Shown here one piece after another: positions 14,887 to 31,214 of a stretch of DNA of 41,309 nt (positions are counted from its first letter, which is position 1; each line of letters begins with the position of its first letter). The position numbers and the translations under genes are program-made. The notes beneath the pieces were generated by a model. It did not search any database and was not told the origin of the DNA. It was given only the letters and a program-made list of their open reading frames with translations. Source of the stretch: Elusimicrobia bacterium CG_4_9_14_3_um_filter_62_55 (GTDB lineage: Bacteria > Elusimicrobiota > Elusimicrobia > UBA1565); assembly GCA_002790095.1 (NCBI GenBank), contig PFUL01000018.1:1-41309 (forward strand), written 5' to 3'.

Positions 14887-14913
14887 GTCACGAAAGCGTC
14901 ATGAAATCGTCAT
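14887..14913 (+). promoter_or_regulatory. Pho-box-like direct repeats upstream of phoB
   Basis: GTCAC at 14887, GTCAT at 14898 and GTCAT at 14909: three units at exactly 11-bp spacing with A-rich spacers. The E. coli Pho box is built the same way (CTGTCAT repeats with 11-bp periodicity). This predicts PhoB autoregulation. Confidence 0.75.
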
Positions 14914-14957: not shown

Positions 14958-15650
14958 ATGAGCGGACACAAGATCTTGGTGGTCGAGGATGAGAAGGATA
15001 TCGTTCGCCTGATCAAGTACAACTTCGAGAAGGACGGGCATAAGGTGGTCGCCGCGCATGACGGCGAGTCCGGGCTGGCGCTCGCGCGCAAGGAAAAGCC
15101 GGATTTGATTATTCTCGATATCATGCTTCCTAAGATGGACGGCTTGGAATTCTGCCGCACGTTCCGTCAGGAGTCTCAGGTCCCGATCCTGTTCTTGACC
15201 GCGAAGAAGAGCGAGGTGGATCGAATTCTGGGCCTGAAGCTCGGCGCCGACGACTACGTGACGAAACCGTTTTCCGTCGGGGAGTTGATCGCTCGCGTGG
15301 AGGCGGTGCTCCGACGGGCGGGTTCCGCCGCGGTCAAGGAGCCGGTAGCGGCCGTCCTGAGGGCGGGGGAACTCGAGGTGGATGCCGAGCGGCACGAGGT
15401 GCGAATCAAGGGGCGGCCGACGACATTGACGCCGAAGGAATTCGAATTTCTGCGCTTGTTGTTCCGTGCGGACGGCAAGGTGCTTTCCCGAGACACGCTG
15501 CTCGAGCGGATTTGGGGCTACGACAAGTCGATGGACATCGACACGCGCACCGTCGACCAGCACATCGCGCGCCTGCGCAAAAAACTTCGCTCCGAGGGCC
15601 AGCGCATTCTGACGGTGACCAACGCCGGCTACCGCATCAAGCTGGACTGA
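14958..15650 (+). CDS. phoB: PhoB-type phosphate response regulator
   Basis: 230 residues. Receiver domain with the acidic pair VVEDE, phospho-acceptor Asp54 (LIILDIMLP), FLTAK and the VTKPF lysine. A winged-helix OmpR/PhoB DNA-binding domain follows (LTPKEFEFLRLLF, ending RTVDQHIARLRKKL and GYRIKLD). It is seven bases upstream of phoR, and the Pst system follows. A longer frame exists upstream, but its codons cover the promoter and Pho box, so the ATG at 14958 is the start. Confidence 0.93.
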   Translation: MSGHKILVVEDEKDIVRLIKYNFEKDGHKVVAAHDGESGLALARKEKPDLIILDIMLPKMDGLEFCRTFRQESQVPILFLTAKKSEVDRILGLKLGADDYVTKPFSVGELIARVEAVLRRAGSAAVKEPVAAVLRAGELEVDAERHEVRIKGRPTTLTPKEFEFLRLLFRADGKVLSRDTLLERIWGYDKSMDIDTRTVDQHIARLRKKLRSEGQRILTVTNAGYRIKLD

Positions 15651-15657
15651 GAACGCC

Positions 15658-17451
15658 TTGATCAAGCGCCCGAGGCAATCGTTTCTGACGCGGCTGATTT
15701 TGGCGTCGGCGCTGTTGACCGCCGTGACGGCGGGTCTCGTGGGAGTCGCCGCGTCCCGCATCGCCCGCAATCATCTGATCGATGAGGCCGCGGCGAAGCT
15801 GCGCTCCCAGGGGTCGCTTTTGGTCGGACGGGTCCCTCCAAAAGAGCTGCGCGCCGGGGACAGGAAGGGCGTCGATGCGCTCGCCGACGGTCTGGGCGCA
15901 GCCGTCGGGGAGCGCGTCACGATCACGGGGCCGGACGGAACGGTGCTCGGCGACTCGGAGGTTTCTCTTCCGGAGTTGGAGGGGGTCGAGAATCATGCCG
16001 CGCGTCCGGAAATCAGAGGCGCGCAGGCGTCCGGTTTCGCTACGGCGATCCGCCGGAGCGCGACGCTCGGAACCGATTTTCTTTACGCGGCGATTCCCGT
16101 GGTCGACGGGAGAAATGCAATCGGAACCCTTCGTCTGGCGACGCCGCTTTCCGGAGTCGAGGAGAAGATACGCGGACTTCAGAAGACGATCGCTTTGTGG
16201 GCGGCGTTTTGCCTGCTTGGGGCTCTCGCGCTTTCGATTTACGTTTCGCGTTCGATACATGGTCCGATCGGAGATCTCGCGGCCGCGGCCGAACGCATCG
16301 CCGGCGGGGATTTCGCCGCTCGCGCGAAGTCGGGGACCGGTGACGAGATCGGACGCTTGGGCGAAGTGCTTAACGCGCTTTCCAGGCGCGTGTCCGAAAC
16401 GATCTCCGCGCTGTCGGCGGAAAAGATGCAGCTGCAGGCCACCTTCGACAACATGGTCGAAGGCGTCGCGCTTGTCGCCGTCGACGGCCGGGTCGAGGAC
16501 TTAAATCCGGTGATGGAGCGCTTGTTCGGCGTTGAGGCGGGAACCGCCCGGGGAAAGCGCTTCGTCGAGATCGTGCGGCAGGCCCCTTTGGAGGACCTCC
16601 TGAAGCGTTCCTTGGAACTCCGGACCCCCCAACAGGGAGAATGGACGCTCTTTACCCCCGAGGAGCGCACTTTCGAGGCGCACGCCAATCCGATCGTCGG
16701 CGAAGCGGGCCTTCAGGGCGCGGTGCTGGTGCTCCACGACATCACGCGCCTGCGCCGCTTGGAGGAGGTGCGCAAGGAATTCGTCGCGAATGTTTCGCAC
16801 GAATTGCGCACGCCGCTCGCGTCGATCAAGGGTTTCGCGGAAACGCTGCGGCGCGGCGGAGTCGACGACCCGGAGCATCGAATGGAATTCGTCGAAACGA
16901 TCGAGCGGCACGCGGACGGCTTGACCCGGCTCGTCGAAGATTTATTGGAGCTGGCGTCGATCGAATCCGGCAAGCGCGGCCTGCGCCGCGAGCGCGTCGC
17001 GCTGCGCGCGTTCGCCGACGAGATCTGGCAAAGCATCCGGCCGATCGCGGAAAAGCGCGGGGTCTCGCTCGTCAACGAAGCAGCCGGGGAGCTTGCGGTC
17101 TGGTTCGACAAGGGGGCGCTGCATCAGGTGCTTCAGAATCTTCTCGCCAACGCGGTGAAGTACAACCGCAGGAACGGAACGGTGACGCTGCGCGCGGTGC
17201 GCGAGGACGGCGGTGCGCGGCTGCGCGTCTCCGTCGAGGACACCGGCATCGGCGTGCCCCGGGCGGACCTTCCGCGGGTGTTCGAGCGCTTCTATCGCGT
17301 CGACAAGGCGCGCTCCCGCGAGCTCGGCGGCACGGGGCTCGGGCTTTCGATCGTCAAGCATCTGGTCGAGAGCCACGGCGGCAAGGTCGGGGCTGAAAGC
17401 TCCGAGGGGAAGGGCTCCACCTTCCACTTCGTCGTTCCCGCCGAAAGTTGA
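15658..17451 (+). CDS. phoR: PhoR-type membrane histidine kinase
   Basis: 597 residues with a TTG start, coupled to phoB. Two membrane segments (about 10-32 and 178-200) bracket an extracytoplasmic domain. Then come a HAMP domain (SRSIHGPIGDLAAAAERIAG), a PAS domain (about 258-360), the phospho-accepting His381 in NVSHELRTPLASIKG, and a catalytic domain with NLLANAVKYN, DTGIGVPRADLPRVFERFY and GTGLGLSIVKHL. It senses phosphate status, normally through PstSCAB and PhoU encoded downstream, and phosphorylates PhoB. The large periplasmic domain is longer than in E. coli PhoR but common in other phyla. Confidence 0.92.
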   Translation: MIKRPRQSFLTRLILASALLTAVTAGLVGVAASRIARNHLIDEAAAKLRSQGSLLVGRVPPKELRAGDRKGVDALADGLGAAVGERVTITGPDGTVLGDSEVSLPELEGVENHAARPEIRGAQASGFATAIRRSATLGTDFLYAAIPVVDGRNAIGTLRLATPLSGVEEKIRGLQKTIALWAAFCLLGALALSIYVSRSIHGPIGDLAAAAERIAGGDFAARAKSGTGDEIGRLGEVLNALSRRVSETISALSAEKMQLQATFDNMVEGVALVAVDGRVEDLNPVMERLFGVEAGTARGKRFVEIVRQAPLEDLLKRSLELRTPQQGEWTLFTPEERTFEAHANPIVGEAGLQGAVLVLHDITRLRRLEEVRKEFVANVSHELRTPLASIKGFAETLRRGGVDDPEHRMEFVETIERHADGLTRLVEDLLELASIESGKRGLRRERVALRAFADEIWQSIRPIAEKRGVSLVNEAAGELAVWFDKGALHQVLQNLLANAVKYNRRNGTVTLRAVREDGGARLRVSVEDTGIGVPRADLPRVFERFYRVDKARSRELGGTGLGLSIVKHLVESHGGKVGAESSEGKGSTFHFVVPAES

Positions 17452-17561: not shown

Positions 17562-18761
17562 ATGAAACACCGAGTCCTCGCCGCGCTGAGCGCGATCCTT
17601 TTCATCGGATCGTCCCGCGCGGACGCTCAAGTCTTGAAACTGCGAACGACGGTCATCAACGACCAGCGCCAGAATCTCATCGAATCCGTGAAGTTGTCCG
17701 GAGACGTCCGGCTTCGCCACGAAACCTTCAATAAGCGAACGGGAACCAACGCGGCGCGCCAGCGCCAGCGCTTTCGCTTCCGTTTGGGAAGCGCGGTCGC
17801 GCTTCCTTACTACTTCAGCGTCAACGCCAAGCTCGCCAGCGGAGTCGGCGAGCAGGTGTCGACGAATCAGAGCTTCGACGACCTGGGCAGCCAAAAGGGA
17901 ATCTTCATCGATCAGCTCTACCTTAAGTACAAGCCCTACCTTTCCGACGAGGGAAGCCTGAGCTTCGCCGCCGGAAAGATCAAGAACCCGATGTGGATGC
18001 CGTATTCGGCCGACGCGGTGTTCGACGGGGATTGGAATCCGGAGGGCATGTCCCAGTCGATCGAGTGGTTCGTCGCGCCGTTGGGCGGAATTTACTTCGC
18101 CAACGCCCTGCAGACCGCCGTCGACGAGGATTCCTCGTCGGAAGCGGACCAGTACCTGTTCTCGACCCAAATCGGCGCCGAATACCGCCTGCCGTTCCAG
18201 ACGCGTCTGCGCGTCGCCGGCGCGTTCCATGAATGGGTCAACGAGCGGGCCTCCACGCTCGGACAGACCGCGCTTAACGAGGGCAACCGGCGGATCACGA
18301 CCGCTCCGAACGCCGGCGCGCTCGCCAACGACTTCGGAGTCGCCGAGATCAGCGGGGAGTTTACCGCGTGGCCGAGGGGCTCCCAGCTGCGGGCGCAGGG
18401 AACCTGGATCAAGAACACCGCGCACGTTTCCACCCGGCTCGGCGCGGGCGACACGGCCCGCGACGACATGGGCTATCAGGTCGGTGCGATTCTCGGCGAG
18501 GCCAGCCTCGCGAAGACCTGGGAGTTCGGCTACTTTTACAAGTGGCTTGAAACCGACGCGACCGTCGCCGACGCAGCCGACTCCGACTTCGGGGACGGCG
18601 GAACGAACCGCCGCGGACATCTCGGCTGGATCGCGTACAGCCCTCTGGATTGGATGCAGATCAAGGCGAAGTTTTTCTACGTGAAGGTAATCGACGAGAT
18701 GTTGGCGCCCGGCAAGGACGACATCAACCGGACGCAGCTCGACCTCGTCGTGAAGTTCTAA
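17562..18761 (+). CDS. Putative outer-membrane porin (Porin_5-like)
   Basis: 399 residues. A signal peptide ends near DAQ (MKHRVLAALSAILFIGSSRADA). The rest is rich in alternating beta-strand patterns (KLSGDVRLRHETFN, RFRFRLGSAVALPYYFSV, GEYRLPFQ-like strands) and ends in DLVVKF with a terminal Phe, the usual signal for beta-barrel insertion. It resembles the 'putative porin' family. It sits between phoR and pstS with only 19 nt to pstS, so it likely serves phosphate or phosphate-ester entry, comparable in role but not in sequence to PhoE/OprP. GGGGGTG precedes the ATG. Confidence 0.8.
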   Translation: MKHRVLAALSAILFIGSSRADAQVLKLRTTVINDQRQNLIESVKLSGDVRLRHETFNKRTGTNAARQRQRFRFRLGSAVALPYYFSVNAKLASGVGEQVSTNQSFDDLGSQKGIFIDQLYLKYKPYLSDEGSLSFAAGKIKNPMWMPYSADAVFDGDWNPEGMSQSIEWFVAPLGGIYFANALQTAVDEDSSSEADQYLFSTQIGAEYRLPFQTRLRVAGAFHEWVNERASTLGQTALNEGNRRITTAPNAGALANDFGVAEISGEFTAWPRGSQLRAQGTWIKNTAHVSTRLGAGDTARDDMGYQVGAILGEASLAKTWEFGYFYKWLETDATVADAADSDFGDGGTNRRGHLGWIAYSPLDWMQIKAKFFYVKVIDEMLAPGKDDINRTQLDLVVKF

Positions 18762-18780: not shown

Positions 18781-19806
18781 ATGAAATCAATGAAATCCAT
18801 CTTGGCGGCGCTGCTCTTGGCCGCGGGGTCCGCCGGCGCGGCCTCGGCGGAACAGCGGCTCAACGGAGCGGGTGCGACCTTCCCGTTTCCGATCTACTCG
18901 AAGTGGTTCGACGCGTACAATAAGAAGACCGGAGTGAAGATCAACTACCAGGCGATCGGTTCCGGCGGCGGCATCCGTCAGGTGACGAAGAAGACCGTCG
19001 ATTTCGGCGCGTCCGACGGCCCGATGACCGACAAGCAGATGTACCAGATCGACGGGAAGATCCACCACATCCCGACGGTGCTCGGCGGCGTGGTGCCTGC
19101 GTTCAACTTGAAGGACGCCGAAGGCAATAAGGTCAGCGACCTGAAGCTGACCGGGAAGGTTCTTGCCGACATTTTCCTGGGCAAGATCACAAACTGGGAC
19201 GATCCGGAAATCGCGGATCTCAATCCGGGAGTGGGCCTGCCGGGCAACCCGATCATCGTAATCCGGCGTGCGGACGGCTCCGGAACGACCTACGCCTTCA
19301 CCGACTACCTCAGCCAGGTCAGCAAGGACTGGAAGAAGACCGTCGGACGCAACACCTCGGTGCAGTGGCCGGTGGGACTGGGCGGCAAAGGAAATCCCGG
19401 TGTTGCGGCGCTGGTGGTTCAGACGCCCAACTCCATCGGCTACCTCGAAGCGATCTATGCGATTCAAAACGATCTCCCGTACGCGTCGATGAAGAACAAG
19501 GCGGGGGAATTCGTGAAGGCCTCGATCGCCTCGGTCAACGCGGCGGCGGCGGGTTCGGCGAATTCGATGCCCAAGGATTTCCGCGTCTCGATCGCGGACG
19601 CCGACGGGCGGGGAGCCTACCCGATCTCCACCTATACCTGGCTTCTCGTATACGAGAAGAACCGGGACGGAAAGGGGGAGTTGATCCGAAATTTCCTCGA
19701 ATGGATGGTGGAGGACGGGCAGGCTTTGGCTCCGGAACTCGGTTACTCCCAACTGCCCGGGCCGGTTCGCGCGATGGTGAAGGAAACGATTAAGAAAGTT
19801 AAATAA
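18781..19806 (+). CDS. pstS: Phosphate ABC transporter substrate-binding protein PstS
   Basis: 341 residues. A signal peptide (MKSMKSILAALLLAAGSAGAASA) has no lipobox, so the protein is a soluble periplasmic binder. Typical PstS motifs: NGAGATFPFPIYSKWF, the phosphate-contacting SGGGIRQV and FGASDGPM, RADGSGTTYAFTDYLS, and the C-terminal YTWLLVYEK. GGAGG lies well placed upstream of the ATG. Cotranscribed with the porin and closed off from pstC by a strong terminator, which would allow pstS to be made in excess over the membrane complex. Confidence 0.95.
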   Translation: MKSMKSILAALLLAAGSAGAASAEQRLNGAGATFPFPIYSKWFDAYNKKTGVKINYQAIGSGGGIRQVTKKTVDFGASDGPMTDKQMYQIDGKIHHIPTVLGGVVPAFNLKDAEGNKVSDLKLTGKVLADIFLGKITNWDDPEIADLNPGVGLPGNPIIVIRRADGSGTTYAFTDYLSQVSKDWKKTVGRNTSVQWPVGLGGKGNPGVAALVVQTPNSIGYLEAIYAIQNDLPYASMKNKAGEFVKASIASVNAAAAGSANSMPKDFRVSIADADGRGAYPISTYTWLLVYEKNRDGKGELIRNFLEWMVEDGQALAPELGYSQLPGPVRAMVKETIKKVK

Positions 19807-19866: not shown

Positions 19867-19904
19867 GTCATAAAACCGTCAAATAGGGTTCGCGCGGCCG
19901 TCGC
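19867..19904 (+). promoter_or_regulatory. Pho-box-like repeats upstream of pstC
   Basis: GTCAT at 19867 and GTCAA at 19878 with A-rich spacers, then in the same 11-bp phase a degenerate unit at 19889 and GTCGC at 19900. The first strong pair lies 37 bp (from 19878) before the -10 box, exactly as at phoB, and GTCGC lies 15 bp before it. It begins one base after the terminator T-run, so pstCAB-phoU has its own PhoB-dependent promoter. Confidence 0.72.
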
Positions 19905-19926: not shown

Positions 19927-20901
19927 ATGCCCGTCGCCGAGTCCTCCGCCCCGCTCGCCATTGTCCGCGCCGCGCCCTCCGCGCGGACCGTCCCCGCCGA
20001 GCGGGCCGCCGACCGCTTCTTTCGCTGGATGATATCGGGTTTCGGACTTTTGGTCGTCGCGCTCGCGGTCGGCCTCGCCGCAATGCTGTACCTGCAGTCG
20101 CGCGGGACCTGGCACGAATTCGGACTTTCGTTCATTACGAGTTCAGAATGGAATCCGGTCGAGGGGCGGTTCGGCGCATGGCCGTTCATCTTCGGGACGC
20201 TCTACTCCTCGGCGCTCGCGCTGCTGATCGCGGTGCCGCTCGGCGTCGGTTCGGCGATTTTCCTCGCCGAACTCGCCCCGAAGCGCGTATCCGCGGTTTG
20301 CACCTTCCTGATCGAACTGCTTGCCGCGATCCCGAGCGTCGTGCTCGGACTGATGGGCGTTTTCGTTCTCGTTCCCGCCATCCGCTCCGTCGAGCCGTGG
20401 ATCAACAAGACGCTGGGCTTCATCCCGCTGTTTAAGGGCGCGCCGTACGGCGTCGGCATGTTCGCCGCCGCCCTGATTCTTTCGATCATGATTTTGCCGT
20501 TCATCACCAGCATCGCGCGGGACGTCCTGCTCGCCGTGCCGCGCCCTCTTAAGGAGGCGGTGTTGGCGCTCGGAGCGACCCGCTGGGAAATGGTCGTCAC
20601 GGTTTGCCTCCCTCATGCCAGGGCGGGGATCCTCGGCGCGGTGTTCCTCGCGCTCGGCCGGGCGCTCGGCGAGACGATGGCCGTGACGATGGTGATCGGC
20701 AACATGGTGCGCGTCTCGTGGTCCCTGCTCGATCCGGGCTACACGATGGCGGCCGTCATCGCCAACGAATTCGCGGAAGCCGTGGAAGACGCGCACGTGA
20801 AGGCTTTGATCGCGATCGGACTGTGCTTGTTCGGCATCACGGTGATCGTCAACGGTCTCGCCCGCCTTCTCATCTATAAAACCGTGAGAAAAACCTCGTG
20901 A
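19927..20901 (+). CDS. pstC: Phosphate ABC transporter permease PstC
   Basis: 324 residues. A short polar N-terminus is followed by six predicted membrane segments. It contains the binding-protein-dependent permease loop (GRALGETMAVTMVIGN, the EAA-type motif that contacts PstB) and the PstC-typical SEWNPVEGRFGAWPFIFGT. Forms the channel with PstA. Its stop overlaps the pstA start (GTGA). No Shine-Dalgarno precedes the ATG; the promoter position suggests leaderless translation. Confidence 0.95.
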   Translation: MPVAESSAPLAIVRAAPSARTVPAERAADRFFRWMISGFGLLVVALAVGLAAMLYLQSRGTWHEFGLSFITSSEWNPVEGRFGAWPFIFGTLYSSALALLIAVPLGVGSAIFLAELAPKRVSAVCTFLIELLAAIPSVVLGLMGVFVLVPAIRSVEPWINKTLGFIPLFKGAPYGVGMFAAALILSIMILPFITSIARDVLLAVPRPLKEAVLALGATRWEMVVTVCLPHARAGILGAVFLALGRALGETMAVTMVIGNMVRVSWSLLDPGYTMAAVIANEFAEAVEDAHVKALIAIGLCLFGITVIVNGLARLLIYKTVRKTS

Positions 20902-21737
20902 AGCGCCGTAAAGTCGTGAACGCGGCGATGCTCACGCTGACCGGCGTCTGCGCTCTCCTCTCGTTGTCCGCCCTGTTCGCGATTTTGGGATACATCGCTT
21001 GGAAAGGCGCGGCCGCGATCAACTGGGGATTTCTGACGCAGCTTCCCAAGCCCGTCGGCGAGACCGGCGGCGGGATCGCGCATTCGATCGTCGGTTCGGC
21101 CAAGGTCGTCGGGTTGGCCGCATTGTTGGGGATTCCCGTAGGGGTTCTGGCGGCGGTGTATCTGGCCGAATACGGGAACAATAAGCTCGGGTTCTTGGTT
21201 CGCTACGCGGCCGACGTGCTCAACGGCATTCCGTCGATCGTGATGGGAATATTCGCCTACGCGCTGGTGGTCGTTCCGTTCAAGGGGTTCAGCGCGCTCG
21301 CGGGCAGCGTCGCGCTCGCGGTCATTTTGATTCCGATGGTGACCCGTTCGAGCGAGGAGTTCATCCGCATGGTGCCGGGTTCCATCCGCGAAGCCGCGCT
21401 GGCGCTCGGCGTTCCGCAGTGGAAGGTGATCCTGTTCGTCGTTCTTCCGACCGCGTCGCGCGGCATCATGACCGGCGCGATTCTGGCCGTTTCCCGCATC
21501 GCCGGAGAGACCGCCCCCTTGATCTTCACCGCGTTTGGAAACCGCTTTTGGGACGAAGGTTGGACGCACCCGATCGCGGCGCTTCCGCTGACGATTTACA
21601 ACTACGCGATATCTCCGTACCGGGATTGGCACGAGCAGGCGTGGGCCGCGGCGTTTCTCCTGCTGATGTTCGTGCTCGCCGTGAACGTGACCGCGAGGAC
21701 ATTGCTGCGTCCGCGCGGAGGAGCCGCGCAAGGATGA
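20898..21737 (+). CDS. pstA: Phosphate ABC transporter permease PstA
   Basis: 279 residues, GTG start overlapping pstC. Six membrane segments. Motifs: [19 protein letters not shown], a cytoplasmic loop with [21 protein letters not shown], and [17 protein letters not shown], the EAA-loop that docks on PstB. Partner of PstC in the inner-membrane channel. ATGA overlap with pstB. Confidence 0.95.
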
Positions 21738-22576
21738 AGATGACGATGATAGAGCCGATTGAAACCGAAAAGTCGCTTCGCCGTCCCGAGGTGGGGGCCG
21801 CAGGGAGCGCGCCGGTCTCCGGAGGGAAGCCGGTGATGGACGTGCGGGAATTGCGCGCGGGCTACGGGTCCGGGGACGTGCTGCACGGCATTTCTTTGGC
21901 CGTCCCCGAGCGAAGCGTTACCGCGATCATCGGTCCTTCCGGCTGCGGGAAGTCGACCTTTATCCGGTGTCTCAACCGCATGCACGAGGTCGCCCCGGGC
22001 GCGGAATGCCGCGGGCAAGTCCTGCTCGGGGGGCGGGACATTTTCGCCATGGACGCAGTGGAGCTGCGCCGCGAGGTCGGGATGGTGTTTCAAAAGCCTA
22101 ATCCCTTCCCGACGATGTCGATCTACAAAAACGTCGCCGCGGGATTGACGCTTAACGGCGTCCGCGACAAGGCCGTGGTCCGGGGCCGCGTCGAAGAGAG
22201 TTTGCGGGGGGCGGCCCTGTGGGATGAGGTCAAGGACCGCCTCGACGGTCCCGCGACCGGACTCTCGGGCGGCCAGCAGCAGCGCCTGTGCATCGCTCGG
22301 GCGCTGGCCGTTGAGCCGAAGATTCTTTTGCTCGACGAGCCGTGTTCGGCTCTCGACCCCAGCGCAACGGCCCGGGTCGAGGAGTTGATTCACGCGCTGC
22401 GCAAGCGGCTTTCGATCGTCATCGTCACGCACAACATGCAGCAGGCGGCGCGGGTGTCCCAGCGCACCGCCTTCTTTCTGATGGGGGAACTCGTGGAGTA
22501 CGACGATACGAGAAAAATCTTTACCAACCCGTCCGACAAGCGGACCGAGGACTACGTGACCGGGAGGTTCGGGTGA
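21734..22576 (+). CDS. pstB: Phosphate ABC transporter ATPase PstB
   Basis: 280 residues. Walker [12 protein letters not shown]-loop [17 protein letters not shown], signature LSGGQQQR, Walker [14 protein letters not shown] and the switch His in VTHNMQQA. The N-terminus is about 25 residues longer than usual before the first strand. It powers phosphate import through PstCA. A GTGA overlap links it to phoU. Confidence 0.96.
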
Positions 22577-23286
22577 GCGTGGAGCGGCATTTCGACCGGG
22601 ACTTGGACGGACTGCGCGAGGCGATTCTGCGCATGGGAGGGCTTTGCGAGGGAATGATCCACTCCGCCGTGAAGCTCGTGATCGAAAGCGACCCCTCCTT
22701 GCTCCCCGGCATCACGGAGCGCGAGGACCGCGTGAACGGGCTTCATTTGGAGATCGACGAGTTGTGCCTGAACCTGCTGGCGCTTCACTCCCCGGCCGCC
22801 GGCGATCTTCGCCTGGTGGCCGCCGCGCTGAAGGTGAACTCGGACCTGGAGCGCATCGGCGATCAGGCGGTCAACGTCGCCGAAACGGGCTGCTTCCTTT
22901 CGAATCTGCCGCAGATGAAGCTGGGCGACGTGCCGCGGATGGCCGAACTAGCCGTGGCGATGCTTAAGGACAGCCTCGACGCGTTCGCGAAGAAGGACGT
23001 GGAACTCGCGAAATCGGTGATCCGGCGCGACGACGAGGAAGATCGGCTGAAGAGTCAAACCTTCAACGAACTGCGCTCTCTGATGCAGTCCGACGCCTCG
23101 ACGATCCAGCGCGCGCTCGACATGATCTTGATTTCGCGCAACCTGGAGCGGATCGCCGACCATGCTACCAACATCGCCGAGGACGTGATCTTCATGGTGC
23201 TCGGCCAGGACATCCGCCACGGCGTCGTGCCCGTCGACGATGTCGGCGACGAGACGAGAGCCGCCGCTCCAAAATCCGGAAGTTAA
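22573..23286 (+). CDS. phoU: Phosphate signalling protein PhoU
   Basis: 237 residues from the GTG overlapping the pstB stop. An all-helical protein of two PhoU repeats (about 10-110 and 120-220). [20 protein letters not shown] in the first and [18 protein letters not shown] in the second are the metal-binding helices. PhoU links the transporter to PhoR and keeps PhoB off when phosphate is plentiful. Ends 8 nt from the convergent plcP/agt ORF with no obvious terminator between. Confidence 0.95.
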
Positions 23287-23294
23287 CACGCCGC

Positions 23295-24671
23295 TTAGGC
23301 GGCCAGCGCCAGCGCGTCGGGATCCGGCGGCGCGTACCAGGGGCGCGGCTCCAGCAGCGCCGCGAAGCGTTCCGCGACGCTCGCCCAGGAATAGGAAAGC
23401 GCGTACTCCCGGCAGCGCTCCGGGTCCAAGCTCAGAGCGGTCCGCACGGCGCGCCCGAGATCCTCGTCGAGGCAGCCGACCGCCGGGTCGGTGACCGCGT
23501 CGCGCGGGCCGGCGACCGGAAACGCCGCCACCGGGACCCCGGAGGCGAGGGCTTCCAGCAGCACGAGGCCGAAGTCGGTACGGCTCGGAAAAACGAACGC
23601 GTCGGCGTCGGCGTAGCATCGCGCGAGTTCCTCGCCGCGCTTTGCCCCCAAGAACCGGACTCCGGGATAGCGCCGCTTGAGTCCAGGAAGGCTGGGGCCG
23701 TCTCCAACGACGACCTTCGTCCCCGAAAACTCCAAACCCAGGAAGGCTTCCAAATTCTTCTCGACCGCGACGCGTCCCACATTGAGCAGAATCGGGTGGG
23801 GGAGGTCTAAATAACCTTTGGGCCGGGGGCGAAACAGCACGGCGTCGACGCCGCGGCTCCAAAGCTTGAGGTTTTCGAACCCGCGCCCCTCGAGTTCGGC
23901 GATCAGCGAGGGAGTGGCGGCGAGCACGCGCGACGCGGGACGATGGAACCATCGCATAAAGCGAAATCCGACCTCGACCGGAAGTCCGGTGCGGCGCTTC
24001 ACGTAGTCGGGAAAGCGGGTGTGAAACGCGGTCGTAAACGCGACGCCGCGGTCGAGGCAGATCCGACGCGCGGCGAGGCCGAGAGGGCCTTCAGTCGCGA
24101 GATGCACCGCATCCGGAGAGGCCGCGTCGAGAATACGTTCCAGGCGGCGGCGGGGGGCGACGGCCAATCGGATTTCCGGGTAGCCGGGACAGGGAAGCGA
24201 CGCGACGCGAAGCGGCCGGGCTCGACGACCTCGACCAGATGCCCTCTCCGGCGCAGTTCGTGTATCGTGTATTCGAGCGTGCGCGACGACGCCGTCGAAC
24301 TGGTCGCCGTGGATGACCAGCAGCCGCCGTCCGTCGGCGGTCTTGTGGACCGCTTCTCTGACGACGCGTACGCCGCCGAAGCGCAATCCCAGAAAATCCC
24401 GCATGCCCTCGTCGTGGTTTCCCGGGACGTACACGACCTTCGTTCCCTTGCGCGCCTTTCGCAGCACCTTTTGAATCACGTCGTTGTGAGCCTGCGGCCA
24501 GTACCAGCTTTTCTTGAGGGCCCAGCCGTCGATGATGTCGCCGACGAGGTAGAGGCGGTCGGATTCGTTGTTCTTTAGGAAGTCGAGCAGGTAGTCCGCC
24601 TTGCAGCCGCGAGTACCCAGATGAATGTCCGAGAGCCAGATCGTCCGGTAGCGCTTCGGCGTGGTCTGCAT
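23295..24671 (-). CDS. PlcP-type metallophosphoesterase joined to GT4 glycosyltransferase (Agt-like), chimeric ORF
   Basis: 458 residues. Residues 1-135 are the front of a calcineurin-like phosphoesterase (WLSDIHLG, GDIIDGW, PGNHDE, IHGDQFDG) with the KKSWYWPQAHND signature of PlcP. PlcP is the phospholipase C that removes head groups under phosphate starvation; LpxH is the distant alternative. The C-terminal GHxH metal motif is missing. From about residue 160 on it is a GT4 glycosyltransferase (PCPGYPEIRLA, TEGPLGLAARR, FHTRFPDY, NVGRVAVEKN, FGLVLLEALA), lacking its first 40 or so residues in frame. In other bacteria plcP and agt are adjacent separate genes making glycolipids. Here they are merged, with about 25 junction residues read out of the GT4 frame (see findings). 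GAGGAGGGAGG precedes the ATG. Confidence 0.72.
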   Translation of the reverse strand: MQTTPKRYRTIWLSDIHLGTRGCKADYLLDFLKNNESDRLYLVGDIIDGWALKKSWYWPQAHNDVIQKVLRKARKGTKVVYVPGNHDEGMRDFLGLRFGGVRVVREAVHKTADGRRLLVIHGDQFDGVVAHARIHDTRTAPERASGRGRRARPLRVASLPCPGYPEIRLAVAPRRRLERILDAASPDAVHLATEGPLGLAARRICLDRGVAFTTAFHTRFPDYVKRRTGLPVEVGFRFMRWFHRPASRVLAATPSLIAELEGRGFENLKLWSRGVDAVLFRPRPKGYLDLPHPILLNVGRVAVEKNLEAFLGLEFSGTKVVVGDGPSLPGLKRRYPGVRFLGAKRGEELARCYADADAFVFPSRTDFGLVLLEALASGVPVAAFPVAGPRDAVTDPAVGCLDEDLGRAVRTALSLDPERCREYALSYSWASVAERFAALLEPRPWYAPPDPDALALAA

Positions 24672-24873: not shown

Positions 24874-24889
24874 GTGACGAAAGCGTCAC
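24874..24889. promoter_or_regulatory. Symmetric Pho-like operator between divergent lipid operons
   Basis: GTGACGAAAGCGTCAC: a GTGAC/GTCAC pair with an 11-bp start-to-start spacing, sharing ACGAAAGCGTCA with the phoB Pho box. On each strand the GTCAC begins exactly 60 bp upstream of that strand's -10 box (24945 on plus, 24818 on minus). Likely a shared control site for both operons. PhoB is the obvious candidate, though classic Pho boxes are direct rather than inverted repeats. Confidence 0.5.
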
Positions 24890-24944
24890 AAATCAGCCAA
24901 GAGATCACTACCCCCTCTCCATCGCGTGCGCCGAGAGCGGCGGC

Positions 24945-24964
24945 TACAATGGAAAAAAAGGAGG
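24945..24964 (+). promoter_or_regulatory. -10 box and ribosome site of the nucleotidyltransferase gene
   Basis: TACAAT at 24945-24950, then an A-rich leader with GGAGG at 24960-24964, six bases before the ATG at 24970. Unlike phoB and pstC this message has a short leader and a strong Shine-Dalgarno. Confidence 0.6.
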
Positions 24965-24969
24965 ATGGG

Positions 24970-25914
24970 ATGAACCAGCACGCGCAAAGCAGAAAAATAT
25001 GGGCATTGGTCCTCGCCGGAGGGGAAGGCAAGCGCATGGAGCCGTGGATCCGCGGTTGGCTCGGCGAGGCGCGTCCGAAGCAGTACTGCGCGTTCACCGG
25101 GGAACGGACGATGCTCGAGCATACGATGGAGCGCGCGGTCGCGGCGGCCGGTTCGACGCGCGTCGTGACGGTGATCGGAAAGGGTCACTGGCGCTGGCTC
25201 GATGAACCGCGGCGCCTGTTCGTGCCGGGGCGCATCGTCGAACAGCCGGAAAATCGCGGCACCGGGGTCGGTCTGCTGCTGGGTCTCGCGCATATTTTGG
25301 CTGAGGACCCCGAGGCCGACATCCTGGTGCTTCCCTCGGACCATTTCGTCCACTCGTCCTCGCGCTTCCTTGATTACGCGGCGGCCGCGGTCGACCTGGC
25401 AAACCTCCGGGAAGAGTCTCTGGTGATGATGGCGGCCCGTCCCGACCGCGCGGAAACCGAGTACGGATGGATCGAACCGCGCGGTCGGATCGTGTCGGGC
25501 CGCTACCCCGGAGCGCGCGGCGTCGCGCGGATGCTGGAGAAGCCGGGCCGTGCCCGCGCGCGTGCGATGTACGAGGAAGGCTGCCTATGGAACACGATGG
25601 TGCTCGCGTTCCGAGGGCGCGCCTTTTGGAAGCTTTTCGAGGAGCTGCACCCGTGGGTGGTCGGCCGATTCGACCCCTTGTTGGGCGTGCGCGGCGGGCG
25701 CGTGGACGGGGAGGCGCTCGCGGCTTTGTACCGGACCCTGCCGGAAGTAGATCTCTCCCGGGACGTCCTGCAGCGGGTTCCGGCGCGCTCGCTGGTGCTC
25801 CCGATGGAGGGCGTTCTGTGGTGCGACTGGGGTCGGCCCGAACGCTTGAAGGCCACGGTCGAGGAATTGGGCCTGAGCGCGAACTACCCGCGTGAAGCCG
25901 AGATGACGGTCTAA
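24970..25914 (+). CDS. Sugar-1-phosphate nucleotidyltransferase (mannose-1-phosphate guanylyltransferase-like)
   Basis: 314 residues. Nucleotide-binding ALVLAGGEGKRM, the RPKQYCAF lysine motif, a Mg/sugar-site LPSDHFVH, and the product-site EYGWIEP and EKPGR, all in the usual order. LWNTMVLAFRG and WCDWGRPERL match ManC-type enzymes. It activates a hexose-1-phosphate to an NDP-sugar. It heads an operon with the olsB-like and plsC/olsA-like genes and is divergent from plcP/agt, so it may supply the sugar donor for the glycolipid glycosyltransferase (inference). An in-frame ATG seven codons upstream is possible, but the GGAGG favours 24970. Confidence 0.85.
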   Translation: MNQHAQSRKIWALVLAGGEGKRMEPWIRGWLGEARPKQYCAFTGERTMLEHTMERAVAAAGSTRVVTVIGKGHWRWLDEPRRLFVPGRIVEQPENRGTGVGLLLGLAHILAEDPEADILVLPSDHFVHSSSRFLDYAAAAVDLANLREESLVMMAARPDRAETEYGWIEPRGRIVSGRYPGARGVARMLEKPGRARARAMYEEGCLWNTMVLAFRGRAFWKLFEELHPWVVGRFDPLLGVRGGRVDGEALAALYRTLPEVDLSRDVLQRVPARSLVLPMEGVLWCDWGRPERLKATVEELGLSANYPREAEMTV

Positions 25915-25925
25915 AGGAGAAACCC

Positions 25926-26446
25926 ATGAGGATGACGATCGCCGCCGACGTGACACCGTCCGTACTCAAGCAGGCCGAAGTTTTTGTCGAGTTCGACTCG
26001 TTTCGTCCGAAGCGCGCCGTCGACGCGACGGTGGGCCGTTACCGCATCAAGACCGCGGAGTCCCCGGGCGAGCTTTTAGCCGCTCTGCGCCTGCGCCACG
26101 AAGTATTCTTTCGCGAACGGCTGGGACGGACGCTTCCCGGCGAGATCGACTTCGACCGCTTCGACCTGTTCGCCGATCATCTGATCGTCGTCGACGAGGA
26201 AGCGAACCGCTTGATCGCGACCTACCGGATGCTTTGCTCGAATTTCGCGAGACGGTTCTACTCGGAGACGGAATTCGAGATCGAGGGTTTTCTCGCGGCG
26301 GGCGGCGTGAAGCTCGAATTGGGGCGCGGGTGCACGGTTTCCCGGCGCTGGATCGGACGTTCCAGAGCACCGATTTCTTCACGGTGCTGGATTTTGAGAA
26401 TATGACCCCGCGCTTCGCCGCGCGCTTCATGAAGGAGCGCGCGTGA
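25926..26446 (+). pseudogene. OlsB/hemolysin-like GNAT N-acyltransferase, internally deleted and frameshifted
   Basis: AAGGAG precedes the ATG. Residues 1-134 match the front of Acetyltransf_5/OlsB-type acyltransferases (RYRIKTAESPGELLAALRLR, HEVFF, FDLFADHLIV, TYRML, KLELGR). The frame then breaks at about 26322-26335. In the next frame the sequence resumes with the family's C-terminus (GARVHGFPALDRTF, then TDFFTVLDFENM, ending MKERA at 26446). That end overlaps the next gene by GTGA, confirming it is the true end. About 100-110 central residues are missing. Read straight through, the first frame stops at 26405. In other bacteria OlsB makes lyso-ornithine lipid. Confidence 0.7.
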
Positions 26447-27213
26447 TCCGCCGTTCGGCGAAGTTTGTCGTCGTTCTGGGAACGATCGGCGTCTTCGCCG
26501 CGCACGCGGCGCTGCTGCCGCTGTGGATGCGCAGCCGGTGGCGCCGGATGCGCGCGCTGGCGGTGCTCGCGCACCGCTACTCGGCGTTCGCCTGCCGCGT
26601 GATGGGAATTCGGGTCCGAGTCGACGGGACGCTGCGTCCGCGCGCGGGCAACGTGATGTTGGTCTCCAATCACCTGTCCTACGTGGACATGCTCGTCATC
26701 GCCTCGCAGATCCCGAGCTGCTTCGTCACTTCCATGGACATGCGGGCGACGATGGGCATCGGTCATCTGTGCCGCGCGGCCGGCTGCCTGTTCGTAGATC
26801 GCAGGCGGATGTGGAATCTGAAAAACGAGATCGCCGAAATCGCCGAAGCGTTGGAAGAGGGGCTCGACGTGGCCGTATTTCCCGAAGCGACCAGCACCAA
26901 CGGCGCGGGAGTTATGCCGTTTCGCCGCGCGCTCTACGAAAGCGCGGTAAAGAGCCGCCGTCCGGTGCAGCCCGTATGCCTGAACTACGAGGCGATCGAC
27001 GGCCGTTCGCTCGACGTGGAGAATCGGGATCGGGTTTACTGGTACGGCGACATGACCTTTCTCCCGCATCTGTGGGAGCTCGTTTCCGTTCGCGAGATCA
27101 CCGTCACGCTCAACGCGTTCGAGCCGCTGCGCGGCGAAAGCGTGGACGCGAAGCGTTTGGCGTCGCGCAGCTACGAGCTGGTCAAAAGCCGCTTCGTGCC
27201 TTGTCCGGCGTAG
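26443..27213 (+). CDS. 1-acyl-glycerol-3-phosphate-type acyltransferase (PlsC/OlsA-like)
   Basis: 256 residues, GTG start overlapping the OlsB-like gene. An N-terminal membrane anchor (FVVVLGTIGVFAAHAALLPLW) is followed by the acyltransferase motifs: NHLSYVDML (His77 and Asp82 of the HX4D site), CLFVDRRR, and VFPEATSTNG in place of the more usual FPEGTRS. Transfers an acyl chain to a lyso-lipid. Pairing with an OlsB-like gene suggests the OlsA step of ornithine-lipid synthesis; ordinary phosphatidate synthesis is the alternative. Converges on the phytase-like gene with one base between stop codons. Confidence 0.82.
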   Translation: MIRRSAKFVVVLGTIGVFAAHAALLPLWMRSRWRRMRALAVLAHRYSAFACRVMGIRVRVDGTLRPRAGNVMLVSNHLSYVDMLVIASQIPSCFVTSMDMRATMGIGHLCRAAGCLFVDRRRMWNLKNEIAEIAEALEEGLDVAVFPEATSTNGAGVMPFRRALYESAVKSRRPVQPVCLNYEAIDGRSLDVENRDRVYWYGDMTFLPHLWELVSVREITVTLNAFEPLRGESVDAKRLASRSYELVKSRFVPCPA

Positions 27214-27214
27214 G

Positions 27215-28240
27215 CTAAGGCAAAAGCAAACGGAAGAAGTAGGTCGGGACTTCGGGTTCGAAGTCGTTGTCGACGGCGACCCAAAGCGTCCGCCCGCCCC
27301 GGGCCGGGACGCCCCAGGCGATCGATTCGAATTTGACGGGCAGCGTTTCGGGGTCGAGCCCCCCGGTTTTCAGGACCGCGAGAAGATCGAGGGAGCGGAT
27401 TCGAACGGTCTTTCCCTTCTTCAATTCCGCCCAAACGACGCTCTTGTAGGCCGGCATCCGGCTCCGGCCGGGATCGGCCCCGAGGCCCCGGTTGTCGCGT
27501 TCGAGCAGCAGGAAGGCCGTATTGGAAACACCCTCGCACTCATTGAACGCCAGGTCCTTGCGGCTCAGCGGCGGCTCGGCGTCGACGGCGGCGGGGTCGA
27601 GTCTCGGAACGCGAAAATCCTTTGGGGACTTTTTCATGTCGGCGGTTTCGTAAACCAGCATTCGGGAGAATTCGCCGGCCTTGCCGCCGTCCTGTTTCAG
27701 CGGACTCTGCAGGAGCACCGCAAGCCGCGAACCGTCCGGGCTGGAGCAGACGCCTTCAAAGCCGCGGTTGTTCGTGCGGCCCGAGTTCTCGCCGGGGAGA
27801 TAATGATCCGGAGGGAGAATCCGGTCGAGCAGTTTCCCGTCCCGTGAGAAATGATACAGCGCCGGTGCGTACTCGTCGCCGACCCACAGCGTCCCGTCGG
27901 GGGCGATCCCGAGTCCTTCGGCGTCAAGCTTGCTTTCATCGGTGTCGATCAGCCCGCTGAACGGCCGGCCCTCCGCGTCCCGGAAGAGAGTCGTGGAGGC
28001 CAATTCCAGCGACACCCCGCCGTCGCCGGTTTCATGGACGCGGAATTCGTGGAAGCGGGGGGCGTACGCCTTCTTCCCGTCGTCCTGGCCGCGGTCGGGC
28101 AGCGCGACGAGCAGCTCGCGTTTCGCGTCCCAACGCAGAGATGAGATTCCGCCGAGGCGTCCGCCGAGCGCATCGGTCGCCGTTCCCGGAAAGACCGCGA
28201 ATCCGGCGAGAACGGCTCCCAGCAGCGCGGCTTCAGTCAT
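27215..28240 (-). CDS. Phytase-like beta-propeller protein (esterase-like activity of phytase family)
   Basis: 341 residues with an N-terminal hydrophobic export segment (EAALLGAVLAGFAVF). Motifs of the phytase-like family: GLIDTDESKLDAEGLGIAPD, WVGDEYAPALYHF, NNRGFEGVCSSPDG, NECEGVSN. The family has a propeller fold and is associated with phosphate-ester hydrolysis, though activity is shown for few members. Overlaps the upstream MFS-DUF2252 gene by 8 nt and so is controlled by the Pho-box-like promoter ahead of that gene. Fits phosphate scavenging. Confidence 0.8.
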   Translation of the reverse strand: MTEAALLGAVLAGFAVFPGTATDALGGRLGGISSLRWDAKRELLVALPDRGQDDGKKAYAPRFHEFRVHETGDGGVSLELASTTLFRDAEGRPFSGLIDTDESKLDAEGLGIAPDGTLWVGDEYAPALYHFSRDGKLLDRILPPDHYLPGENSGRTNNRGFEGVCSSPDGSRLAVLLQSPLKQDGGKAGEFSRMLVYETADMKKSPKDFRVPRLDPAAVDAEPPLSRKDLAFNECEGVSNTAFLLLERDNRGLGADPGRSRMPAYKSVVWAELKKGKTVRIRSLDLLAVLKTGGLDPETLPVKFESIAWGVPARGGRTLWVAVDNDFEPEVPTYFFRLLLP

Positions 28241-31154
28241 CGGTTTTCTCCTCGGAAGAAAGTTTACGCAAATAGCGACGGTGCGCGGCGGTCAATTCGC
28301 GCTTGATCGCGGCCGCGGAGGCGACGAGTTCGTCCCAGTGATCCCGCAGATGCGCTTCGAGAAAGTCCGGCGCTGCGCTTTGCAGCGAGAGCCGGTGGCC
28401 CCGGCCGAGTTGAGAGCCGACCGCGCCCGCGAGGTCGGCGAGTTCCTTCGCTCCCAGCGCGCGCTTGAGCTTCGCGTTCTGCGTCGGGATCCGGCGTCCG
28501 GACCAGACCTTTCCTTCATAAAGGGTCCAGCCGGGTCCGTCGGCCCAGCCGGGGGCGTACAGTTCCGACGCGCGCAGCATCCGCTCTCCATCGGAGGGGA
28601 AGGGAGTCGCGAACCAGCGGTCGTCGGGATCGTTTCGGTTTTCCTTCAAATCGAGCAAAATCCAGTCGGCGCGGGAATGCGCGTCGCGGGGCTTGAGCAA
28701 AAGGACGATGCGCTCCCGCTCGCCCATGGAGCCGACTCCGAGCCCGGCCTCGGCGATGAAGAAATCCTCGAGCAGTTCCGGCTCGCCGCGGTTTGCGGCG
28801 TAGCCGGCGAGCAGCGCGGCGACGCGCGCGTCGTCAACCGCTAACGGGCGCGCGCGCATCTCTTCGACCCATTTCAGTCCGCCTTCGACATAGGCGCGGG
28901 TCGAGCGTTCTTCCCGCGTCGGCTTGGTTTTGCGGAGTTTCTTCATTTCGCGATAGCCTTTCTCGGGACGGCGAAAACCCGCGAGGTAGCCCTCGCGCAG
29001 TGCGGCGAGGGTTGCCTCCGGAAGTAATTCGCTCCCCGGGCGCTTCTGAGAGATTGATAGCGAGACGAGGAAGCGGAGCAGATCCCAGGCGTATGGACCG
29101 ACGCGCGAGCGGTCGAAATCGACCATTGCCGCGCCGTGATGGGTTTTCGCGTAGTTGTCCAGATGCGGGTTGCCGTGCAGGAACACGCGCGGCATCGCGT
29201 CGAGTTCGAACAACTGCGCGAAGCGCTTCTGCATCGGAAAGAAGGCGTTGCGGAAGTAGAACTCGAGACCGCGCCGTTTCTTGCGGTAGTTCGCGCGAAG
29301 CCGCTCGGAGTCTCCCTCGGGGTCTTTGTCGAAGAGGTTGTCCGGGGATGCTTGTGCGTCGGCGGCGTTGAGGCGCGGCGGGGCGGAGGCGGTTTTCCCC
29401 GCGCGATAGGCCAGCAGCGCTTGAACCACGGCGGCGGCGGCTAGGCCGGCTCCGATCCAAACGAAGGCCGCGTGCGCGCCGACGGCGGCCGCGAACGCGG
29501 CTCCGACCAGCGCTTTGACGCCCATCGCGCTGAGGTTCACGCTGAAGCGGGTTGCGCCGAGCACGCGTCCGGCGGCGCCGGGCGGCGCGCGGGATTGCAA
29601 AGTCGAGAGCGCAAAGAGCCGAGCCGTGACGTTCGCCGCCGCGAACAGGAAGATGGCGGTCGCCAGGAGCGGAAGGGACGCGGGGGCCCAGGCGAGCGCG
29701 AGCCCTAGGGTGCCGGCCGAGCTCACGCCGAGCCAGAGTCCGGGGGGTGCGCGCCGGTGGAAACGGCGATACAGCGCCGCGCCGACGAGGCCGCCGAGCC
29801 CGAACATGCCGACCAGCCAGGCCGCCGAGGTGGAGTCGTGCAGAAGCGATTCGGCGTAAGCCGCCGGGAGGACGCTTCGCAGCGGGTACAAAGTCAGCGA
29901 GACCGCGGCCAGAAACGCGAGAGAGGTCTTCGGGTCGCGCAGCAGCGCGCGGACCGTCTCAACGACGCCGATGAGCGGGGCTGCGCCGTTCGCGTCGGGT
30001 CCGACGGCTCGCGGCGCCATCGGGCGGTTCGGGATCAGCGCGAACGCGGCGGACGACAGGGCGAACGCGGCCGGGACGAACCATAGGGCCCCGGTGGTGC
30101 CGGTCATCAACATCATCCCGCCGACTGCGAACGGCCCGATAAGCGCGCCCCCCTCGAAGAAGGTTTGATAGCGGGAGTTGAACGCGTCGAGCGCATCCCT
30201 TTCCGATCCAGTCAGCGACAGCGGCAGTGCGTGGCGGGCGGTGTCCGCGATTCCGCGCGCAAGCGCGTCGGCGAGCACGACGCCGGCCGCGACCGGCAAG
30301 GTCAGCGAATCGGCGGCGAGCAGCGCGGGCAGCGCGAAAAGCGCGGCGGCGCGGGCGGCCGCGGCGGCGGTCAGGAGATGTTTCGAGTGGACGCGGTCGG
30401 CGAGCCATCCTCCGATCAAAGTCCCGGCCGCATCGGCCGCGCCGGCCAGGGCGATGACGACGGCGACCGTCGAGAACGCGGCGCCTGCGCCCAGCAACGC
30501 GATCGGCAGCGCGACATGAAGCGCGTTGTTTCCAACCTGGGAGGCGAAGGTTCCCCCGAGAAACGCCCCGATCGGCGAGGGCGGGACGGCCGGAGCGCGT
30601 CCCGAAGAGGCTTCGCCCGCGGCCGCGAGGCTGGAAAATCGCACACCGCGGCGACGAGGGGCGTCCGAAAAAACGGGGTCGAGCGGGGCGTCGGCGGCCG
30701 GCAGAGAGAAATCAAGTTTGCGCCAATGCTCGCCCGCGCGTCCCGGGGCGGCGAGCGCGGCGGCGGCCGATTTCGCGGCGGAGTCGAGCCGCGGTTTCGC
30801 GCCTTCGCGGGGGGACTGCGTCCCGGTGCGTTTTTGCCCCAGCGCGCGCGGGGCCTGCGGGTTCTTAAAAGCGGCGGGCGCGAGCCGAAGGCCGGAAATC
30901 GCCGCGGGGCGCGCCGTCGGCATTGGGGCAATCGGGAGCAAGGACGCCGCCGGCAGCGGCAGCAAACCGGAAATCGAGGGTGCGGCGAGCGGCCCGGGCG
31001 CTAGGGTCGGAGCATTTAGCGCCGCAATCGGGACAGTCAACGAGGGCGGCGCCGTGCCTGCGTGCGAGAGCGGGACCCGGGCCAGCGCGGCCCATACCGG
31101 CGTTCCGGTTCCGTGCAGCAGCAGCAGGGAAAAAAACCAAGCGGCTCGGCGCAT
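28233..31154 (-). CDS. MFS-type membrane domain fused to DUF2252 (kinase-like fold), with exported-type N-terminus
   Basis: 973 residues. A signal-like start (MRRAAWFFSLLLLHGTGTPVWA) and an Ala/Pro/Leu-rich spacer of about 150 residues come first. About residues 185-580 hold some ten to twelve hydrophobic spans of MFS type (IGAFLGGTFASQVGNNALHV, GGWLADRVHSKHLL). About residues 600-960 are a DUF2252 domain (FLHGNPHLDNYAKT, AAMVDFDRSRVGPYAWDLLR), resembling aminoglycoside-phosphotransferase/kinase folds. The DUF2252 part would face one side of the membrane. I know of no characterised example of this combination. Pho-like repeats precede it and the phytase-like gene follows in the same operon. 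Confidence 0.8.
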   Translation of the reverse strand: MRRAAWFFSLLLLHGTGTPVWAALARVPLSHAGTAPPSLTVPIAALNAPTLAPGPLAAPSISGLLPLPAASLLPIAPMPTARPAAISGLRLAPAAFKNPQAPRALGQKRTGTQSPREGAKPRLDSAAKSAAAALAAPGRAGEHWRKLDFSLPAADAPLDPVFSDAPRRRGVRFSSLAAAGEASSGRAPAVPPSPIGAFLGGTFASQVGNNALHVALPIALLGAGAAFSTVAVVIALAGAADAAGTLIGGWLADRVHSKHLLTAAAAARAAALFALPALLAADSLTLPVAAGVVLADALARGIADTARHALPLSLTGSERDALDAFNSRYQTFFEGGALIGPFAVGGMMLMTGTTGALWFVPAAFALSSAAFALIPNRPMAPRAVGPDANGAAPLIGVVETVRALLRDPKTSLAFLAAVSLTLYPLRSVLPAAYAESLLHDSTSAAWLVGMFGLGGLVGAALYRRFHRRAPPGLWLGVSSAGTLGLALAWAPASLPLLATAIFLFAAANVTARLFALSTLQSRAPPGAAGRVLGATRFSVNLSAMGVKALVGAAFAAAVGAHAAFVWIGAGLAAAAVVQALLAYRAGKTASAPPRLNAADAQASPDNLFDKDPEGDSERLRANYRKKRRGLEFYFRNAFFPMQKRFAQLFELDAMPRVFLHGNPHLDNYAKTHHGAAMVDFDRSRVGPYAWDLLRFLVSLSISQKRPGSELLPEATLAALREGYLAGFRRPEKGYREMKKLRKTKPTREERSTRAYVEGGLKWVEEMRARPLAVDDARVAALLAGYAANRGEPELLEDFFIAEAGLGVGSMGERERIVLLLKPRDAHSRADWILLDLKENRNDPDDRWFATPFPSDGERMLRASELYAPGWADGPGWTLYEGKVWSGRRIPTQNAKLKRALGAKELADLAGAVGSQLGRGHRLSLQSAAPDFLEAHLRDHWDELVASAAAIKRELTAAHRRYLRKLSSEEKTDD

Positions 31155-31173
31155 GACCGTAGTCTACGCGAAC

Positions 31174-31214
31174 GTTATAGAGGAAGGGTTTCAGCGCGGT
31201 GACGTTTTAGTGAC
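31174..31214 (-). promoter_or_regulatory. Pho-box-like promoter of the MFS-DUF2252/phytase operon
   Basis: On the minus strand GTCAC starts at 31214 and again at 31203 (11 bp apart, spacer TAAAAC) with GAAAC in the next phase. TATAAC (31179-31174) lies 24 bp beyond the second unit and 19 nt before the ATG. It occupies the 77-nt gap after the ychJ-like gene. Confidence 0.62.

Follow-up and report, generated by a model that had tools for sequence, protein, structure and literature searches.

A probable Pho promoter links an MFS-DUF2252 fusion to phosphate stress in Elusimicrobiota

DUF2252 has essentially no assigned function, and a literature search found no phosphate role for it. Regulators of the PhoB type recognize direct repeats of 11 bp and act as activators when phosphate is limiting. 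In a contig of 41,309 nucleotides from an Elusimicrobia bacterium, which was analyzed at full length and is referred to here as the window, repeats of this type stand in front of a gene encoding a major facilitator superfamily (MFS) transporter fused to a DUF2252 domain. Do these repeats place the fusion in the phosphate response and, if so, what might a kinase-like domain do at the end of a transporter? A preliminary description had proposed a link to phosphate stress from GTCAC-N6-GTCAC repeats and a downstream TATAAC. Here we find that this link is strongly supported by a shared promoter geometry, by the Pho island around the gene and by orthologous operons, and we judge from the sequence that the fusion is very probably under Pho control.

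The repeats are confirmed: GTCACTAAAACGTCAC at 31214-31199 on the minus strand, upstream of the fusion, is an exact GTCAC-N6-GTCAC. It forms a PhoB-type box, GTCACTAAAAC GTCACCGCGCT (31199..31214, minus strand), with half-sites 11 bp apart, and the minus strand here reads ...GCCGTCACTAAAACGTCACCGCGCTGAAACCCTTCCTCTATAACGTTCGCGTAGACTACGGTCATG..., with an ATG at 31154 that opens a 973-codon open reading frame. TATAAC, named as the -10 in the preliminary description, is present (31174..31179, minus strand) but is probably not the -10. That role probably belongs to TAGACT (31161..31166, minus strand), 48 nt from the first half-site and 6 nt before the ATG in what would be a leaderless promoter, because Pho genes here and in relatives share a TAnnnT hexamer 6 nt before the start codon; TATAAC was dropped on the same grounds. 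A TAT at +35, the same distance as TATAAC, is kept in most fusion promoters of the relatives and may belong to a further half-site.

Aligning the promoters of the window and its relatives revealed a shared layout, GTSAY-N6-GTSAY-N32-TAnnnT-N6-start codon, in which TAnnnT lies 48 nt from the first half-site in pstC, ppk1 and the fusion, and the same distance is counted from the second half-site in phoB. The whole layout, derived from phoB, pstC, ppk1 and the orthologues before the genome was searched and hence not a blind model, is found with at most one mismatch four times in the 4.3 Mb of the genome: at phoB, pstC, ppk1 (on another contig) and the fusion. Nothing in the rule forced the search to yield Pho genes only, and the reversed control returned no site in the same 4.3 Mb. 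A box with an A-rich spacer, GTCAYNAAANNGTCAY, has eight matches in the 4.3-Mb genome at one mismatch, five of them in the 41-kb window: two before phoB and one each before pstC, the nucleotidyltransferase and the fusion.

Could the repeat before the fusion be a chance match? The bare motif proves little alone, because with two mismatches the window has 23 matches, no more than shuffles give (26), and exact GTCAC-N6-GTCAC is present also within some coding regions of the genome. Since the bare motif is not enriched, geometry and conservation were used as evidence. The chance of a GTSAY pair matching at 10 of 10 positions in 150 nt of upstream DNA is about 0.0004-0.0014, and that of a pair matching at 9 or more is about 3 %. 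With the full layout at only four genome sites, three of them core Pho genes, and the repeats kept in orthologues, coincidence is extremely improbable.

Of 263 genes in the window and related loci, 28 carry a TAnnnT-type hexamer precisely 6 nt ahead of their first start codon; most other distances from the start yield about 2-3. Leaderless transcription looks common in these Elusimicrobiota, a subject on which a literature search found no paper.

The window contains a whole Pho island comprising phoB, phoR, pstSCAB, phoU, a plcP/glycosyltransferase remnant and olsB/olsA. On the plus strand, a phoB-like response regulator (14958..15650, start corrected to the ATG at 14958), whose best match among solved structures in the PDB is RegX3, is preceded by a Pho box at 14887-14913 and followed by a phoR-like histidine kinase with HAMP-PAS-HisKA-HATPase architecture (15658..17451), a Porin_5 family outer-membrane porin (17562..18761), a pstS-like phosphate-binding protein (18781..19806) and the pstC and pstA permeases (19927..21737). 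The pstC promoter, with its box at 19867-19882 and TACAAT 6 nt before the ATG, is laid out as in the fusion. The pstB ATPase (21419..22576) and phoU (22342..23286) come next on the same strand, both given as open reading frames with true starts further in. A sugar-nucleotidyltransferase (24874..25914, plus strand) has the Pho box GTGACGAAAGCGTCAC at 24874-24889. Two further genes were observed in the window: directly upstream of phoB, a 998-aa protein with PLD-like repeats and a TrmB-like segment (11882-14878, plus strand) and, at 35345-37180 on the minus strand, a hybrid histidine kinase with an N-terminal MEDS domain.

This set resembles the PhoB/RegX3-type Pho regulon in its GTCA-type repeats spaced by 11 bp, its PhoB-family regulator, PhoR, PstSCAB, PhoU and polyphosphate kinase. 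It differs from that regulon in its seemingly leaderless promoters, whose TAnnnT stands precisely 6 nt ahead of the start codon and whose box lies 48 nt before the -10, and in counting a transporter-kinase-fold fusion among its members. Features that mark a gene as a member of a Pho regulon are found together for the fusion: 11-bp direct repeats of GTCA type in its promoter, a geometry common to undoubted Pho genes and rare elsewhere, PhoB, PhoR and Pst encoded by the genome, and repeats kept before its orthologues.

The island also carries genes of membrane lipid synthesis. A minus-strand remnant (23295..24671) joins the N-terminus of a PlcP-type metallophosphoesterase to a GT4 glycosyltransferase that has lost its own N-terminus, with a deletion and a frameshift relative to the relatives. 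Acyltransferases resembling OlsB and OlsA of ornithine-lipid synthesis follow at 25926..27213 on the plus strand, of which olsB (25926-26405) has lost about 95 codons internally and carries a frameshift, intact copies being found in relatives. The damage to plcP-agt and olsB may be gene decay or assembly error. Both PlcP/Agt lipid remodelling, as a Pho-controlled process, and ornithine lipids have an established function in phosphate starvation (PMC4796936), and the island is like that system in that it combines Pho boxes with plcP-, glycosyltransferase- and ols-like genes. It is unlike that system in that plcP-agt and olsB appear broken, the window having no intact pair of plcP and glycosyltransferase.

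Is the promoter kept beyond the window? A whole-protein search of the genome contigs gave no match, and a domain profile afterwards found named relatives; all genomes compared are metagenome assemblies. The fusion-type DUF2252 domain is present in 13 of 341 genomes of the phylum, on contigs labelled Elusimicrobia or Elusimicrobiota where named. The 12 other Elusimicrobiota belong to another family of the same order and encode a longer homologue, an MFS-thymidylate-kinase-like-DUF2252 protein of about 1200-1240 residues where complete, with corrected starts. Other members of the window's own family, one of the same genus included, are without the fusion gene. The domain tree, which puts the window on a long, poorly placed branch, neither shows nor excludes horizontal transfer of the fusion from the other family.

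Downstream in the relatives lie an ApaH/Pnkp-like metallophosphatase, a second MFS and often polyphosphate kinase 1, in genes whose ends often overlap or nearly touch; nearby are genes for CYTH, PHO4 phosphate permease, PhoU-like, SixA-like, PlcP, OlsA/B and PhoBR proteins. Eight fusion-operon heads were readable (L033, L035, L036, L038, L040, L041, L042 and L044), and six of them have a Pho-type pair matching at 9 or more of 10 positions. Heads L036 and L041 reach 8 of 10 at the best-scored site, with a second site upstream of L036 reaching 9. Many of the background genes with high scores in these loci have phosphate functions of their own (ppk1, plcP, PhoU-like, phoB, olsB and nucleotidyltransferase). 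Thus, orthologous operons in another family keep the repeats, and operons with neither repeats nor phosphate genes, which the preliminary description had named as the observation that would tell against it, were not found among the relatives.

Searching nine related genomes for the layout gave few matches, among them the fusion promoter of genome G038, and the same search found none in two family members without the fusion. In two other related genomes the layout matches at a gene preceding the fusion. This gene encodes a protein of about 510 aa without a Pfam match, directly before the MFS-TMPK-DUF2252 gene (L038:6534-8069 and L042:12433-13977), and judging by its promoter layout it would be another, uncharacterized Pho gene.

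The middle domain of the relatives is like thymidylate kinase (PF02223; PDB 2plr and others) in its intact Walker A motif, GLDGSGKST, and a DR-type motif. It is unlike thymidylate kinase in being fused between MFS and DUF2252, in genomes that also encode a separate housekeeping Tmk. This P-loop domain is missing from the window's fusion, where the junction is cleanly in frame; its absence needs caution because the damage to plcP-agt and olsB may be assembly error.

What, then, does the promoter control? The fusion (28233..31154, minus strand; 973 aa) consists of a signal-like N-terminus with an A/P-rich disordered segment (residues 1-194), an MFS part (195-589) and a DUF2252 kinase-fold domain (about 600-973). 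The MFS assignment rests on a Pfam MFS_1 match (4.5e-17, residues 200-543) together with a 12-helix fold in the full-length model. Motif A (GGWLADR) and the positive loop charges place the MFS C-terminus, and with it the DUF2252 domain, in the cytoplasm. The start is signal-peptide-like and about 165 Ala/Pro-rich residues follow before the MFS part, an arrangement that appears hard to reconcile with the cytoplasmic MFS N-terminus implied by motif A; the available sequences suggest that this extension is widespread in MFS proteins of Elusimicrobiota. Another MFS fusion of 1002 aa, with a C-terminal WD40-like beta-propeller, was observed in the same genome (L047:5859-8867, contig C50 of G000).

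The nearest NCBIfam models of the MFS part are drug and siderophore exporters, namely the H+ antiporter TIGR00900, EntS and Tap. Together with an APH profile that likewise matches the fusion, these would suit a drug-efflux or resistance pair, a DHA3-type MFS with an aminoglycoside-phosphotransferase-like domain, merely located in a Pho island. However, the curated cut-offs of the three models are not reached (74.7 bits against 319.6, and similar), the gene has its own promoter of the type common to phoB, pstC and ppk1, and the repeats and the phosphate context are kept in relatives of another family, so that we regard this explanation as very improbable. In a tree of MFS domains, that of the window falls within the group of fusion and second-MFS proteins, apart from the other tested Elusimicrobiota MFS.

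The MFS part could instead be a lipid or lysolipid flippase that aids phospholipid replacement in phosphate starvation, acting with the adjoining PlcP/glycosyltransferase and ornithine-lipid genes. The plcP-agt remnant and olsB/olsA adjoin the fusion, intact plcP and ols genes lie near the relatives' copies, and Pho control of PlcP/Agt remodelling is established (PMC4796936). In addition, the MFS part of one relative weakly matches the MFS-acyltransferase family PRK08633 (1.3e-5), and SPNS2 is among the Foldseek matches of the full-length model. Those matches are nonetheless all generic MFS proteins, the profile matches are likewise generic and weak, the operon partner in several relatives is Ppk1 rather than lipid genes, and plcP-agt and olsB look broken in this contig; a flippase is accordingly an unlikely reading.

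The DUF2252 assignment of the C-terminal domain is well above the Pfam cut-off (PF10009, protein-kinase clan; 4.4e-12, 46.2 bits against 22.3). An AlphaFold2 model of the fusion-type domain is confident (mean pLDDT 86) and, in the numbering of the modelled domain, the catalytic-loop motif H71-G-[SN]-P-H-x-D-N78 and DFD (90-92) precede the beta sheet that bears the invariant Lys248. Motif order and modelled elements thus agree on a permuted kinase fold, with C-lobe motifs before the N-lobe sheet, as in other DUF2252 proteins, whose flipped lobes have been noted (PMC9758233). Foldseek gave no significant structural match for this model, which is expected because the fold is permuted, and a PDB profile search with DUF2252 gave none either.

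The preliminary description had suggested that this domain acts on a phosphate-containing substrate moved by the MFS part. Its kinase-like fold is upheld, in permuted form, but each of the 16 members seen has Ser or Asn in place of the catalytic Asp, which makes phosphorylation of the substrate less probable. The subfamily has the motif HG[SN]xHxDNYAK, with HGN in the window and HGS or HGN in relatives, in place of the GDxHxxNF that ordinary DUF2252 proteins of the phylum retain; the Asp expected in the HGD/HRD-type loop of an active APH or protein-kinase-type enzyme is absent. A Pho-regulated, active small-molecule kinase phosphorylating a solute imported by the MFS part is therefore unlikely, although a kinase-like fold is fused to a transporter, Asn, the DFD-type Asp and the beta-sheet Lys are invariant, the APH profile matches too, and the relatives add a P-loop kinase domain with an intact Walker A. 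Fusion to MFS, and to TMPK, also sets the subfamily in Elusimicrobiota apart from other DUF2252 proteins. Stand-alone subfamily members were found in one myxobacterial, one gammaproteobacterial and one Legionellales genome, again with Ser or Asn for Asp. The Legionellales member (L084:9944-12306; HGS motif) shares 4 nt with the start of an MFS gene, in what appears to be an unfused version of the MFS and DUF2252 pairing.

Eight nucleotides of the fusion's end overlap the next gene (27215..28240, minus strand), which encodes a 341-aa phytase-like protein. The match to PF13449 is strong (1.2e-50, 173.4 bits against a Pfam cut-off of 27.6), though as a profile match it makes the activity putative, and no solved structural relative of the protein was found. 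A member of this family is strongly induced by phosphate limitation in Nodularia (PMC9846622). The overlap had been taken as support for a phosphate role of the operon, and it is real; as support it is weak, the gene not being found in 52 relatives, and a conserved partnership with the fusion was rejected for the same reason.

The sequence itself shows the promoter architecture, its conservation, the gene context, the domain make-up and the loss of the catalytic Asp. From these we infer PhoB binding, induction, nucleotide binding, gating, and the direction and substrate of transport. On the whole the best explanation is probably a PhoB-dependent two-gene unit encoding a phosphate-stress transporter with a cytosolic, ligand-binding, altered kinase-fold domain. 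PhoB would bind the box and induce the fusion and the phytase-like gene during phosphate starvation, in one regulon with phoB, pst and ppk1. The product would be a 12-helix MFS carrier whose cytoplasmic C-terminus bears the lobe-permuted DUF2252 domain, with a thymidylate-kinase-like P-loop domain between the two in relatives. The ligand of the cytosolic domain or domains may be a nucleotide or a phosphorylated compound, and their task either the control of transport or a reaction other than ordinary phosphotransfer; together with Ppk1 and phosphatases, the system may serve to salvage or store phosphate, or to turn over polyphosphate. It is quite likely that the fusion serves phosphate or polyphosphate handling and not something incidental; a regulatory-domain mechanism is put forward only tentatively.

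In the eukaryotic SPX-MFS phosphate transporters (VPT1/PHT5), an MFS carrier with a cytosolic ligand-sensing domain acts in phosphate and polyphosphate homeostasis. The comparison concerns a possible way of working only, as the fusion proteins have kinase-fold and P-loop domains without SPX and are homologous in the MFS fold alone. A more speculative and rather doubtful extension would unite MFS-(TMPK-like)-DUF2252 with the ApaH/Pnkp-like phosphatase, the second MFS and Ppk1 in a previously undescribed membrane system of Elusimicrobiota under PhoB control, linking transport with the turnover of nucleotides or polyphosphate, DUF2252 having left ordinary phosphotransfer for sensing or other chemistry.

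With the promoter rule, the Pho genes of Elusimicrobiota can be listed easily, and the absent catalytic Asp poses a sharp biochemical question. The fusion is very probably a new part of these bacteria's response to phosphate shortage, and a transporter-fused DUF2252 subfamily tied to the Pho regulon and to polyphosphate kinase provides a first testable physiological setting.
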